A stretch of DNA of 43,157 nucleotides, taken from a virus. A model generated the notes under the pieces. The model ran no database searches, was not told the origin of the DNA, and saw only the letters and a list, made by a program, of their open reading frames with translations. A program made the position numbers and the translations under genes. The stretch lies in the IMG/VR virus record IMGVR_UViG_3300010354_000178, positions 1-43,157 of that record. One strand, written 5' to 3'. Below, one piece after another: positions 16,394 through 31,037 of the stretch. How positions within the stretch are numbered: position 1 is the first letter of the stretch; every line of letters starts with the position of its first letter.

Positions 16394-17290
16394 ATGGCAA
16401 CTCTAGGTAACCCGTTTATAGATTATTTCTTATTTCAAAGACCTGAATTACAGCCAACATCATCAACTGTATCTGGTATTTCAAGAATTAAATCAGCAGT
16501 AGCTAGCTACAATAATGGTGTGTTGCAAAACAACCGTTTCTTAATGTTTATTACTGCACCTGCTAGCTTAAGATATAATCTAGGAGCTCCAGACTCAGAA
16601 GAAGAAGATTTTATTGGTAGTAGTATTGCTGCAGCAAGCGGTAATATATTACCATTTTTATGTTATAAAGTTAACTTGCCTGGTGTTACAATTAACAATA
16701 GAGACGTTTTACCTAACGGTTTTGGTGTTTCAACAAAAATGCCATACTCACAAAGTTTTGGCCCTCTAATGCCAAACTTTTTTGTAGATCAAAATTTATC
16801 AGCTCATAATTTTTTTACTAAATGGGCACAGAGCGTAATTAATTTTGGTGGTAATAAAGCTATAAATGCACCTTCAACAGTTAATGGTGCTCAGATGTTT
16901 GATGTGTCTTATAAAGATGACTATTCAACTATTATCGATATCTACGTGTATAATAATGTTTCTGAATCGTTAATTGAATATAAATTTTATAATGCTTTTC
17001 CAACTGCATTAGGTGATATTGAACTGTCTTGGGAATACAATAATGAAATTATGTCAATGCCTGTAACTATTAACTATGATTATTGGACTTCTAATTTTAT
17101 TAAACCATCTACCCAATATGATAATTATAGCCCTGGTATTAACTATTTTAACAGTTTATTCCCTTCTGGGTTTGCTGGATATTCTAATGATCCTGGTTAT
17201 AATAGACAAGTACAGAGAGATTCGCTGGTATTATCTACATTTGCGGCACGCTCACCTTTAAATAGATTTAGAAATAGAAATGCAATTTAA
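16394..17290 (+). CDS. Tail-tube-like protein, probable gp54 baseplate tube initiator
   Basis: The ATG at 16394, with AAGGTA just upstream, gives 298 residues beginning MATLGNPFIDYFLFQRPELQ. The middle and end follow the T4 tail-tube fold pattern: LCYKVNLPGVTINNRD, YSQSFGPLMPNFFVDQN, FTKWAQSVINFGG, YKDDYSTIIDIYVYN, FPTALGDIELSWEYN, then INYDYW. T4 gp19, gp48 and gp54 share this fold; at about 300 residues with a long N-terminal part it fits gp54 better than gp19 (163 residues). The open frame extends upstream to 16337 over the previous gene's end, which I treat as non-coding shadow. Neighbouring gp26 and gp51 support a tail-core role. Confidence 0.65.
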   Translation: MATLGNPFIDYFLFQRPELQPTSSTVSGISRIKSAVASYNNGVLQNNRFLMFITAPASLRYNLGAPDSEEEDFIGSSIAAASGNILPFLCYKVNLPGVTINNRDVLPNGFGVSTKMPYSQSFGPLMPNFFVDQNLSAHNFFTKWAQSVINFGGNKAINAPSTVNGAQMFDVSYKDDYSTIIDIYVYNNVSESLIEYKFYNAFPTALGDIELSWEYNNEIMSMPVTINYDYWTSNFIKPSTQYDNYSPGINYFNSLFPSGFAGYSNDPGYNRQVQRDSLVLSTFAARSPLNRFRNRNAI

Positions 17291-17311: not shown

Positions 17312-18010
17312 ATGCCTTTACCTAAAATAAAACTACCTGTTTTTAGCTGTCAAATAGTTTCACATAAAGAGCCGGTACAATTTAAACCATTTACAGTTAA
17401 AGAAGAAAAGATTCTTCTTATTGCGAAAGAGAGCTCTGAAGATGATTATATTCTTTTAGAAGCAGTAAAACAAATTATCAATAATTGCCTTATTACTAAA
17501 ATAGATGTTAATAAACTTCCTATTTTTGATATTCAATATTTGTTTATTCAATTAAGAAGTAAATCTATCGGTAATATTGTTGAATTAAGTTTAAGAGACA
17601 CAGAAGATAAGAAACTCTATAAAGTAGAAGTTAATTTAGATGATGTAAAATATACTAAACCAGAAAATCACACTAATACAGTTAAAATAAATGATGATAC
17701 TGGTATTGTTATGAAGTATCCAACGGTTGATATGCTTAAAGGTAAAGACTTTAAAAAAGATCCATTAGCTACATTTGAATTAGTAAAAGATTGTGTAGAT
17801 TATGTCTATAGCGGCGATTCTATTTACAAAGCATCTGAAACCCCTAGAAAAGAACTTGATGATTTTTTTGAGGGAATGCCTAGCGAGATGGTAGGCAAAT
17901 TTAATGATTTTCTCGAAAGCATGCCTACAGTATCTCATAAAGTATCGTATGTAAATTCAAATGGTAAAAAAGTTGATTATGAGGTAAACAATTTAAAGAA
18001 TTTTTTTTAG
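17312..18010 (+). CDS. 26: Baseplate hub protein gp26 (T4 gp26 family)
   Basis: 232 residues from the ATG at 17312, which has GGAG 7 bases upstream; a TTG-started extension to 17300 is unlikely. T4 gp26 has 208 residues. VSHKEPVQFKPFTVKEEKIL and IFDIQYLFIQLRSKSIG are the hallmark segments of the gp26 family, which acts in hub assembly. The gene ends AAG AAT TTT TTT TAG, with eight T residues (18001-18008) just before the stop, and the -1 frame continues without a stop into gp51. A frameshifted 290-residue gp26-gp51 product is therefore possible, resembling the tail assembly chaperone G/GT arrangement. That frameshift is a proposal, not demonstrated. Confidence 0.85.
   Translation: MPLPKIKLPVFSCQIVSHKEPVQFKPFTVKEEKILLIAKESSEDDYILLEAVKQIINNCLITKIDVNKLPIFDIQYLFIQLRSKSIGNIVELSLRDTEDKKLYKVEVNLDDVKYTKPENHTNTVKINDDTGIVMKYPTVDMLKGKDFKKDPLATFELVKDCVDYVYSGDSIYKASETPRKELDDFFEGMPSEMVGKFNDFLESMPTVSHKVSYVNSNGKKVDYEVNNLKNFF
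18001..18008 (+). promoter_or_regulatory. Candidate -1 ribosomal frameshift site (T8) joining gp26 to gp51
   Basis: The heptamer T TTT TTT (18001-18007) is in the correct zero-frame phase for a canonical X XXY YYZ slip, one codon before the gp26 TAG. After slipping -1 the ribosome reads TTA GTA AGC ATG..., entering gp51 with no stop. No strong Shine-Dalgarno is visible before the gp51 ATG. I did not identify a clear downstream pseudoknot. Confidence 0.55.
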
Positions 18011-18015
18011 TAAGC

Positions 18016-18183
18016 ATGTCTCATAATACGATAGCTAATTACTATAATATTAATTTTTTGCTCACGTATTATCATAAATATTCATTAAGTGATATAGAAA
18101 GAATGATACCCTTTGAAAGAGACATTTATATAGGGTTACTAGAAACTGAATTGCAAAAACAAAAAGAAGCAAATAAAGAATAA
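18016..18183 (+). CDS. 51: Short baseplate hub assembly protein, gp51-like
   Basis: A 55-residue frame, MSHNTIANYYNINFLLTYYH..., with YSLSDIERMIPFERDIYIGL and a Glu/Lys-rich end. The IERMIPFERDIY segment is characteristic of the short protein usually annotated as gp51 in marine T4-like phages, much shorter than T4 gp51 (249 residues). Its ATG is 5 bases after the gp26 stop and in the -1 frame relative to it; no good ribosome binding site precedes it, so expression may depend on coupling or on frameshifting at the T8 run. gp51 acts as a catalyst or chaperone in hub assembly. Confidence 0.7.
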   Translation: MSHNTIANYYNINFLLTYYHKYSLSDIERMIPFERDIYIGLLETELQKQKEANKE

Positions 18184-18192
18184 GAGATATAA

Positions 18193-19563
18193 ATGCAAGG
18201 ATTAGCTGGATTAGGGGCTAGATTATTTGGGGCTGGCGGCAGAATGCTTAAAGGAGGCTGGCAGAATCTCAAGAGGATGTTTGGTTTAGGAGGGGCTGCT
18301 ACTGGCGGTGGGCTGTTAGCTAATGCATTGAATGGCCAGCAAAACCAGCAAGGTCAAGATGGTGAAGAAGAGCAACAATTAAATATTGAAGAGCCAGAAG
18401 TAAGCCCTAATGTAACTCCTATCCAGCAATTAAACATGGGAGCTTCTGGTGTTATATCACCTATGGTATCAGGTGGAACACCAGATGAAAAATTAGATTA
18501 TATTGTAAGTTCAGTAGATAGTATGAGAAGAACTATAAGTACGCTAGTATCTTCTATAAGAAGTTTAGCTATCGGACAAGCAACAGTAAATCGTAATGTT
18601 GCAGCTACTGCTGAAAGACCTCAAAGACAAGGATTTATAAGAACTACTGTAGGCGGTGCACTAAAAGCAGCTGGTCTAGGTACAGCTCTTGCTTTAGGTA
18701 TTGGAGCTGCTGCTGGATTATTGAGCAATAATGTAGAAGATGTTGAAAATATTGACGCAACTTTAGAAAATATAACCCCTTCTATAGCTGAGATAAAAAG
18801 TGGTCAAGTTAAACCAGAAGAATCTAACTTATATAAAACAGCTGAGAGTTTAGTAACTAGATTTGATCAATCTTACGGGCTGCCGGTAAGCTTAGAGACT
18901 CCAATAGAAAAAGCAATGGAAGAAAACGAAAACATAAAAACTTTCGTTGAAGGGCTTAGAAGTAATGGTGTTGAAGTTGATCCTAACGCTACACTGTATT
19001 CACTACCTGAAATAGTTAAAAGTATAGCCCCTGCTACTACTCAAGAACCCGGACAACCTGCAACACCTCCTGCTCCTGGTACTGAGCAACCACAGCCAGA
19101 AGCATCAACACCACCTGCAGCTACACCTAATATAACACCTCAACCAGGGCAAGAAGAAACTACGTTAGAAAACAGTACAGCGGCTCCTACTACTATTGCT
19201 CCTCCTGCTTCTTCACCAGCTAATGAAGATGCAACTATAGAGCAACCTATCGAGGGTGAAACTCAAGAAGATGAGATGAGAGGTATAGAACAACAATCCT
19301 CACTTCGAGATACACTACAAGAACCAGGTGCAGGCAATATATTACCCTCTACACAGTCTATAAGAGATAGATCTTTCGAAACTGCTACTAATACTAAAAC
19401 TGTAGTAGCTCCTGTTGTAATTAATGGTCCACAAGCACCTGCTCAGCAAGTTATGCCACAAGTTGCATCTGATGGCAGAGGTAGAGGTGCTACGTTAACT
19501 GTAGCGTATAAAACACCTGCAGATTCTCGAACATACTCGCAAGATAATTTTGCATCTGTATAA
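18193..19563 (+). CDS. Tail tape-measure/hub candidate (unrecognised family)
   Basis: 456 residues in the position where T4-like and other tailed phages place the tape measure or gp28/gp29, directly after the hub assembly genes. The N-terminus is Gly-rich and basic, residues 95-130 are helical (DYIVSSVDSMRRTISTLVSS), and residues about 150-180 are a strongly hydrophobic Ala/Gly/Leu segment. Residues 280-400 are Pro/Thr/Glu-rich and probably disordered. Hydrophobic segments within helix fit a tape measure, but the protein is shorter than T4 gp29 (590) and has a long disordered tail. It ends 5 bases before a bidirectional terminator, so it is the last gene of the plus-strand block. I do not recognise the family. 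Confidence 0.5.
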   Translation: MQGLAGLGARLFGAGGRMLKGGWQNLKRMFGLGGAATGGGLLANALNGQQNQQGQDGEEEQQLNIEEPEVSPNVTPIQQLNMGASGVISPMVSGGTPDEKLDYIVSSVDSMRRTISTLVSSIRSLAIGQATVNRNVAATAERPQRQGFIRTTVGGALKAAGLGTALALGIGAAAGLLSNNVEDVENIDATLENITPSIAEIKSGQVKPEESNLYKTAESLVTRFDQSYGLPVSLETPIEKAMEENENIKTFVEGLRSNGVEVDPNATLYSLPEIVKSIAPATTQEPGQPATPPAPGTEQPQPEASTPPAATPNITPQPGQEETTLENSTAAPTTIAPPASSPANEDATIEQPIEGETQEDEMRGIEQQSSLRDTLQEPGAGNILPSTQSIRDRSFETATNTKTVVAPVVINGPQAPAQQVMPQVASDGRGRGATLTVAYKTPADSRTYSQDNFASV

Positions 19564-30288: not shown

Positions 30289-30493
30289 TCTTCTTTGGCT
30301 TTTTTGCTGGGCCACGCTTTTTCTTCACTTTATCAATAGTCTTTTCTACTGCAGCTTCTACTTTAGTAATTTCTGTCTTTACTTCTTGTACTACTTCTTT
30401 TACTTCAGCTTTAACTTCATTAACAACTTTTGATACAGTTGGCTCAACATTATTTAAACCAATACCAAAAAACTCTTTAATCCATCTGAACAT
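30275..30493 (-). CDS. Small amphipathic, lysine-rich protein
   Basis: 72 residues from the ATG at 30493, which has AGGAG 8 bases upstream. It opens MFRWIKEFFGIG, an amphipathic membrane-seeking helix, then a long coiled-coil-like helix of Val/Glu/Lys repeats (VNEVKAEVKEVVQEVKTEIT) and a basic tail KKKRGPAKKPKKSDSK. A phasin-like or membrane-surface protein is conceivable. It overlaps RuvC upstream by 17 bases and the zinc-ribbon gene downstream. Confidence 0.6.
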   Translation of the reverse strand: MFRWIKEFFGIGLNNVEPTVSKVVNEVKAEVKEVVQEVKTEITKVEAAVEKTIDKVKKKRGPAKKPKKSDSK

Positions 30494-31037
30494 TTTTTTT
30501 CTCCTGTTCATATCCATATTTACAAATGAAATAACTGTCTATTATGTCAGAAGAAGGATTCCATTGCTTATCTGTCATTGATAGCTTCTTCTTGATATAA
30601 AATCCAGTACTTTCTTCAAAACAATCTTGTAGAAGTTGCTTGTTTGCATTACCCTTACCTGTCGCAAACTTCTTAATAACAGTTGGGGGAACTATTGTAA
30701 CATCGTAGTTGCTTTTCCAAAGATAGTGCTTAAGAAGGCCTGCATTTTCTGCAATATTAAACACCATACCTGTAGAGCCCATTGAATACCCTTCTAGATA
30801 TACTATATCTCCATCATTAATTTTATCTAATGCCCATTGCGTTATGTTCATATAACGACCTTCATTAGTATACCATTCTCTATGGAGATCACCTTTTATA
30901 TTATCAACATCTATATCAAATTTTTTATTATCTGTTAAATAGTAAAAAACACAATTATAAAAACTAAATTGTTTTTTAGTATCAAAGATGCAAACGCACG
31001 GCGATGTTAAACTATAATCAATACCTACTATATTCAT
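30477..31037 (-). CDS. RuvC-like Holliday junction resolvase
   Basis: 186 residues with the RNase H-fold resolvase tetrad: IVGIDYSLTS (D7), IVYLEGYSMGS (E82) and SSDIIDSYFI (D164, D167). VPPTVIKKFATGKGNANK is the substrate-contact segment of RuvC (WxPxxVKKxxTGxGxAxK pattern). T4 itself resolves junctions with endonuclease VII (gp49), so this enzyme probably replaces or supplements it before packaging. It abuts the upstream acidic gene (1-base overlap). Confidence 0.85.
   Translation of the reverse strand: MNIVGIDYSLTSPCVCIFDTKKQFSFYNCVFYYLTDNKKFDIDVDNIKGDLHREWYTNEGRYMNITQWALDKINDGDIVYLEGYSMGSTGMVFNIAENAGLLKHYLWKSNYDVTIVPPTVIKKFATGKGNANKQLLQDCFEESTGFYIKKKLSMTDKQWNPSSDIIDSYFICKYGYEQEKKNVQMD

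Follow-up and report, generated by a model that had tools for sequence, protein, structure and literature searches.

A conserved poly-T slip site and a probable programmed −1 ribosomal frameshift joining gp26 and gp51 in a T4-like phage

The frameshifting cassette of E. coli dnaX consists of an internal Shine-Dalgarno-like (SD-like) motif about 10 nt upstream, a slippery heptamer and a downstream stem-loop, and the slippery sequence of phage lambda is G GGA AAG. Among T4-like phages, frameshifting is reportedly conserved in several groups (Vladimirov et al. 2022). In lambda, one gene located between those of the major tail protein and the tape measure yields the short chaperone gpG and the −1 frameshifted, long gpGT (PMC5009743); the same 2016 review describes G-T frameshifting as widespread, with T4 excepted. 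SD stimulators have been sought 6 to 17 nt upstream of slip sites (PMC4066793). Further, the PRFect paper (PMC10885494) describes T4-like phages in which one gene is short and another is a long fusion, and another paper (PMC12846349) describes TAC-N genes of T4-like phages with poly-T slippery sequences; both cite Vladimirov 2022 (in full, Vladimirov, Gautam, Davidson 2022, Virology 566:9-15). The initial annotation of the locus studied here had pointed to such chaperone frameshifts in other tailed phages, and these reports bear it out, T4-like phages included. T4-like phages were already known to have the gp26/gp51 frameshift arrangement and, because of these prior TAC-N/TAC-NC reports, the present locus is a further member of a known system and not a new arrangement.

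The window, which is the whole stretch of DNA analysed (43,157 nt), is a 43 kb fragment of a T4-like phage from IMG/VR; a megablast comparison of the region to named phages gave no match. On its plus strand, the gene order is tail tube, gp26, gp51 and then a candidate tape-measure gene assigned by position only, which is the tail-chaperone position that the initial annotation had pointed out. In particular, the gene for a gp19-like tail tube protein (16394–17290; phrog_45 tail tube, 1.5e-34; PF23849 and PF06841 above cut-off) precedes the chaperone gene gp26 (17312–18010), whose 0-frame product is the 232-aa TAC-N (PF12322 T4_baseplate, 6.5e-54; phrog_150, 8.5e-57). The 0 frame ends in AAG AAT TTT TTT TAG, where the slippery heptamer T TTT TTT (18001–18007), with codons TTT TTT that would re-pair as TTT TTT in the −1 frame, is followed immediately by the stop codon TAG (18008–18010). 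The eighth T of the run (18001–18008) is the first base of this stop. Eight Ts in slippery phase had been described correctly, but their placement one codon before the stop had not, as zero codons separate the heptamer from TAG. After a slip, the −1 frame would continue through TTA GTA AGC ATG TCT to a stop at 18181–18183; this open continuation (18007–18183, 58 codons plus stop) encodes the putative TAC-C domain, or 'gp51', and matches phrog_634 (2.8e-20) and the C-terminal part of phrog_150. The passage through TTA GTA AGC into the gp51 ATG and the predicted 290-residue fusion (232 + 58) can be read directly from the sequence, as had been proposed. At the predicted junction, NFF is joined to LVSMSHN, and the tryptic peptide across it is NFFLVSMSHNTIANYYNINFLLTYYHK.

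Very probably, gp26 and gp51 belong to a single locus for tail assembly chaperones in which a −1 ribosomal frameshift is programmed; the slip site, the open −1 frame, their conservation, a −1 coding signature and selection on the local RNA are each observed in the sequence. The majority of ribosomes would end at TAG 18008, yielding gp26 (TAC-N, 232 aa). Some ribosomes, with tRNA-Phe in both the P and A sites on TTT TTT, would slip back by one base, re-pair perfectly and read TTA GTA AGC ATG to the end of the frame at 18183, yielding a 290-aa TAC-NC. The two products would be made in a fixed ratio. By analogy to gpG/gpGT of lambda, the tape-measure protein would be coated by the N part, and tail-tube subunits would be recruited by the C part and loaded on the tape measure. 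We infer the chaperone role of the gp26/gp51 products, as well as the translational nature of the slippage and its efficiency. Such a mechanism would explain the production of gp26 and gp51 in a marine or freshwater type of T4-like phage.

The T4-like TAC-N/TAC-NC system, to the extent that the papers citing Vladimirov 2022 describe it, shares with the window the gp26/gp51 family, the genome position and the poly-T signal. The likeness to lambda is one of arrangement, and the gp26/gp51 slip sequence is poly-T, unlike that of lambda. The parts of the dnaX cassette match those found in the gp26/gp51 family, although the window lacks a well-placed SD; moreover, the dnaX frameshift leads to the shorter product, whereas the gp26/gp51 frameshift would lead to the longer one. 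The gp26/gp51 sites show both upstream SD-like and downstream stem signals, in contrast to certain tailed phages that seemingly lack stimulators (PMC5009743).

Two scans of IMG/VR and named phage records yielded 172 loci with a gp26 relative, from which 94 representatives with mutual identity under 70% were drawn; these are not fully independent, and counts over them are not to be taken as exact probabilities. The initial annotation had suggested checking the conservation of the slippery run, and an in-phase TTTTTTN is present close to the gp26 stop in 170 of the 172 relatives. The two others are L173, whose contig ends before the site, and L042, which diverges abruptly. L042 (3001–3890), the sole full-length relative without the heptamer, has a gp26 that matches that of L046 up to GVE and diverges after it, close to the C terminus, and is probably a rearranged or misassembled contig. 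Among the 94 representatives, the heptamer takes the forms TTTTTTT (55), TTTTTTC (36), TTTTTTG (2) and TTTTTTA (1), the T-run has a length of six in 39, seven in 42 and eight in 13, and 0 to 3 codons separate the heptamer from the stop in 92. The heptamer is also present in relatives with about 50% GC (Stenotrophomonas DLP6, Pseudomonas pf16, Rhizobium P10VF and Sinorhizobium phiM19), and the slip site is retained in the KVP40-like Vibrio phages V05 and D484. Moreover, all 94 representatives use TTT for the first Phe, compared to a 69% background in the same genes, and the codon preceding it has a final T in all 94; elsewhere in these genes, just 7 of 106 FF pairs create a TTTTTTN. Synonymous resampling of the three codons gave an expectation of 41 ± 4 of 94 (maximum 58) versus the 94 observed. 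As judged from these sequences, the amino acids alone do not account for the codons used at the heptamer.

All 94 representatives have an open −1 frame, with two truncated by contig ends, and no slip-site relative has a −1 stop ahead of the gp51 core; the continuity that the initial annotation had wished to see in related phages is there. The 0 and +1 frames past the slip are open for 40 codons in none of 90 representatives. After removal of the two truncated representatives, ATG is missing from the first 12 −1 codons in 62 of 92, and all three of ATG, GTG and TTG are missing in 42 of 92. Across 10 independent start-less pairs, the −1-frame substitutions past the gp26 stop fall at third (31), first (7) and second (2) codon positions, a third-position bias between relatives by which this stretch is judged to be coding without a start codon of its own. 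The ATG of the gp51 call (18016–18018) sits 5 nt 3' of the gp26 stop, and its upstream sequence (ATTTAAAGAATTTTTTTTAGTAAGC) contains no Shine-Dalgarno at a usable distance, in agreement with the earlier remark that gp51 has no clear ribosome binding site. Of 92 representatives, 74 have Leu and 8 have Met at the homologous position, and ATG 18016 is probably an internal methionine of the fusion. Because the −1 frame is open in all representatives, many of them start-less, 'gp51' is very probably, by this comparison, the C-terminal part of a frameshift product (TAC-NC), with gp26 as TAC-N.

The RNA downstream of the slip site carries a further signal. In the family, a 9-bp stem pairs nt 8–16 with nt 55–63 after the heptamer (typically GCUGAGUCA/UGGCUCAGC), starting 7 nt downstream and enclosing a 38-nt loop. 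It forms with 8 or 9 pairs in 35/92 representatives, versus 3.1 ± 1.6 in synonymous resampling and at most 11 when the partner is slid by up to 12 nt. Covariation in the stem amounts to 18 cells changed on both sides versus 4.0 in shuffles; these 35 representatives were chosen for pairing, and the unselected resampling test is the firmer of the two. When the 63 nt from 4 nt past the heptamer were compared to synonymous variants, the mean stability z was −4.5 in the 35 with the stem and −1.95 in the other 57; controls inside gp26 or farther downstream were mostly near zero, the largest being −0.8 for one long window in gp26. A single downstream structure common to all relatives was rejected, as the 9-bp stem fits just 35/92 and the remaining 57 form diverse hairpins. 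Overall, these comparisons indicate that the local RNA downstream of the slip site is under selection.

Upstream, an SD-like 4-mer occurs 4 to 20 nt before the heptamer in 65/94 representatives, compared to 21% at other gp26 positions, and mostly 8 to 11 nt before it. Under the amino-acid constraint, 63 motifs are observed versus 56 ± 2.3 expected from synonymous resampling, and the Glu codon in the motif is GAG in 30/45 versus 11.3 expected. Purely nucleotide-level selection on the motif is only partly supported, as a conserved Glu-Gly accounts for much of it. The motif is commoner without the 9-bp stem (45/57 versus 16/35 with it) and with a nearby gp26 stop (51/62 versus 10/30), associations that are suggestive, with groups set after looking and phylogeny ignored. 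The window itself has neither a well-placed SD-like motif nor the family 9-bp stem. Its GAGGT (17981–17985) lies 15–16 nt 5' of the heptamer, more distant than in most relatives, and is a doubtful stimulator. Its own candidate stimulatory stem, weaker and displaced, spans 18023–18072, 15 nt past the heptamer, and pairs ATAATACG (18023–18030) with CGTATTAT (18065–18072); the minimum free energy is −8.8 kcal/mol, and 0.3% of synonymous variants are equally stable (P 0.003). The relative L001 keeps 7/8 pairs (P 0.03), and L002 is weaker (P 0.08). Our literature search found no description of a stimulatory element at T4-like chaperone slip sites, Vladimirov et al. 2022 being represented through the papers that cite it. 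If confirmed, the downstream RNA signal would offer a testable determinant of how much short chaperone is made relative to long.

Three other explanations bear on these observations. That the T-run arose by chance between two ordinary genes of an AT-rich genome might be suggested by the window's 19 T7 matches on both strands, with one more in phase within gp26 (17863–17869). These runs are nevertheless scarcer than dinucleotide shuffles predict, by about two to seven times, with 19 T7 seen versus 39 expected on both strands and 2 T8 seen versus 13.5 expected, the slip site being one of the two; U7 has likewise been reported as rare in E. coli genes (PMC4066793). A T-run by itself in an AT-rich genome is, on sequence grounds, little proof, and conservation carries the case. 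The run's retention in 170 relatives, those with about 50% GC among them, and the synonymous resampling refute a chance origin, to which we give a negligible probability. Alternatively, RNA polymerase could add or drop a U in the T8, and the mixed mRNAs would encode the fusion. Such slippage is one reason for the rarity of U7 in E. coli genes (PMC4066793), and T8 is present in the window and in 13/94 representatives; it may be long enough in the window for some transcriptional slippage. However, 39/94 representatives have six Ts and 42/94 have seven, yet all have the in-phase heptamer, and codon phase is irrelevant to a polymerase. Because the T TTT TTC form (36/94) has six Ts only, polymerase slippage is not needed; the position-specific downstream structure and the upstream SD-like motif point instead to the ribosome, and we consider this explanation quite unlikely.

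The last alternative is that re-initiation (translational coupling) at ATG 18016 yields gp51 as a protein of its own, and that the T-run is incidental. It agrees with the nearness of stop and start, with the annotation of gp51 as its own gene in public records and with the ATG being kept in the window, L001 and L002. It is nonetheless very unlikely, as the 62 of 92 representatives without ATG at that place, and the 42 without any of ATG, GTG or TTG, argue against it, and the constraint on the heptamer would be left unexplained. A free 55-aa gp51 could still arise by re-initiation as a side product in the window. Programmed −1 frameshifting on the ribosome remains the preferred reading.

Two other T-runs of the window deserve description. 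Its second T8 (30493–30500) lies towards the 3' end of a minus-strand gene for a RuvC-like resolvase (30477–31037), where it reads as A8 on the coding strand. The in-phase T TTT TTT inside gp26 (17863–17869, in DDFFEGMP) would, upon a −1 slip, meet a TGA at once, and a truncated gp26 could come from that site. This internal heptamer looks unselected because it is kept in L001 but absent in L002.

T4 offers a comparison in which frameshifting appears to have been replaced by gene duplication. Both T4 gp26 and T4 gp51 belong to PF12322, as does the window's gp26, and direct BLASTP aligns the two T4 proteins with each other. T4 gp51 carries the PF12322 domain and the same C-terminal tail in one frame, whereas T4 gp26 lacks the tail; in particular, T4 gp51 matches the tail's family, phrog_634, at 1.2e-23 (2.8e-20 for the window), and its residues 209–244 align with the −1 profile. 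An hhalign comparison of the gp26 profile to T4 gp51 gave a weak, misplaced match only, and the paralogy of gp26 and gp51 rests on Pfam, PHROG profiles and BLASTP. T4 encodes its short and long forms in two genes that are transcribed divergently and have no slip site, whereas the window has one locus with a slip site. The in-phase T6 at the end of gp26 is absent in the 8 separate-gene phages checked, seven with the T4 arrangement plus Vibrio phage TDDLMA. Because the slip site is kept in phages such as V05 and D484 but absent in the separate-gene phages, these sequences indicate that most of the T4-like groups sampled obtain their short and long chaperones by frameshifting, and the T4 group from two separate genes. 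We lean slightly towards a broader proposal, in which selected stimulators at T4-like chaperone slip sites turn over between lineages (the 9-bp stem, unrelated hairpins, the SD-like motif), and phages would use exchangeable parts to tune one short/long ratio, up to the point at which a gene duplication took the place of the slip in the T4 lineage. Vibrio phage TDDLMA (L179:1311-2653) has a gp26-like gene and, after it on the same strand, a fused gp51-type gene, and the slip site is absent; this is a tandem form of the duplication that is divergent in T4.

The AlphaFold2 model of gp26 is of high confidence (pLDDT 90.8). Comparison of this model to the PDB (Foldseek, VIA-align) gave nothing significant, and the gp26 profile gave chance-level matches only to the sequences of solved structures; because there is no significant PDB match, no argument from fold is made for kinship with solved chaperones. 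In BFVD, the model matches mainly gp26/gp51-like proteins. Downstream, the 456-aa ORF (18193–19563) is a candidate tape-measure protein by position only. It has no match among named phages and a Pro/Thr-rich, low-complexity middle that is unusual for a tape measure; many relatives have an ORF of 450 to 780 aa at the same place.

The frameshift reading would correct a systematic annotation error, in which gp51 is called as a separate gene and the frames are left unjoined; none of the public records inspected joins gp26 to gp51 across frames. The annotations at issue are those at 18016 in the window and in L082–L084, L090, L182 and L183. Because many relatives lack a start codon there, gp51 annotations begin inside the conserved core and leave stubs. 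For example, named-phage records treat gp51 as a separate gene, often a 30–47 aa stub from an internal Met (P-HM2, Mosig, S-RSM4, HTVC008M), with 30 aa annotated in P-HM2 and 44 aa in both Mosig and S-RSM4.
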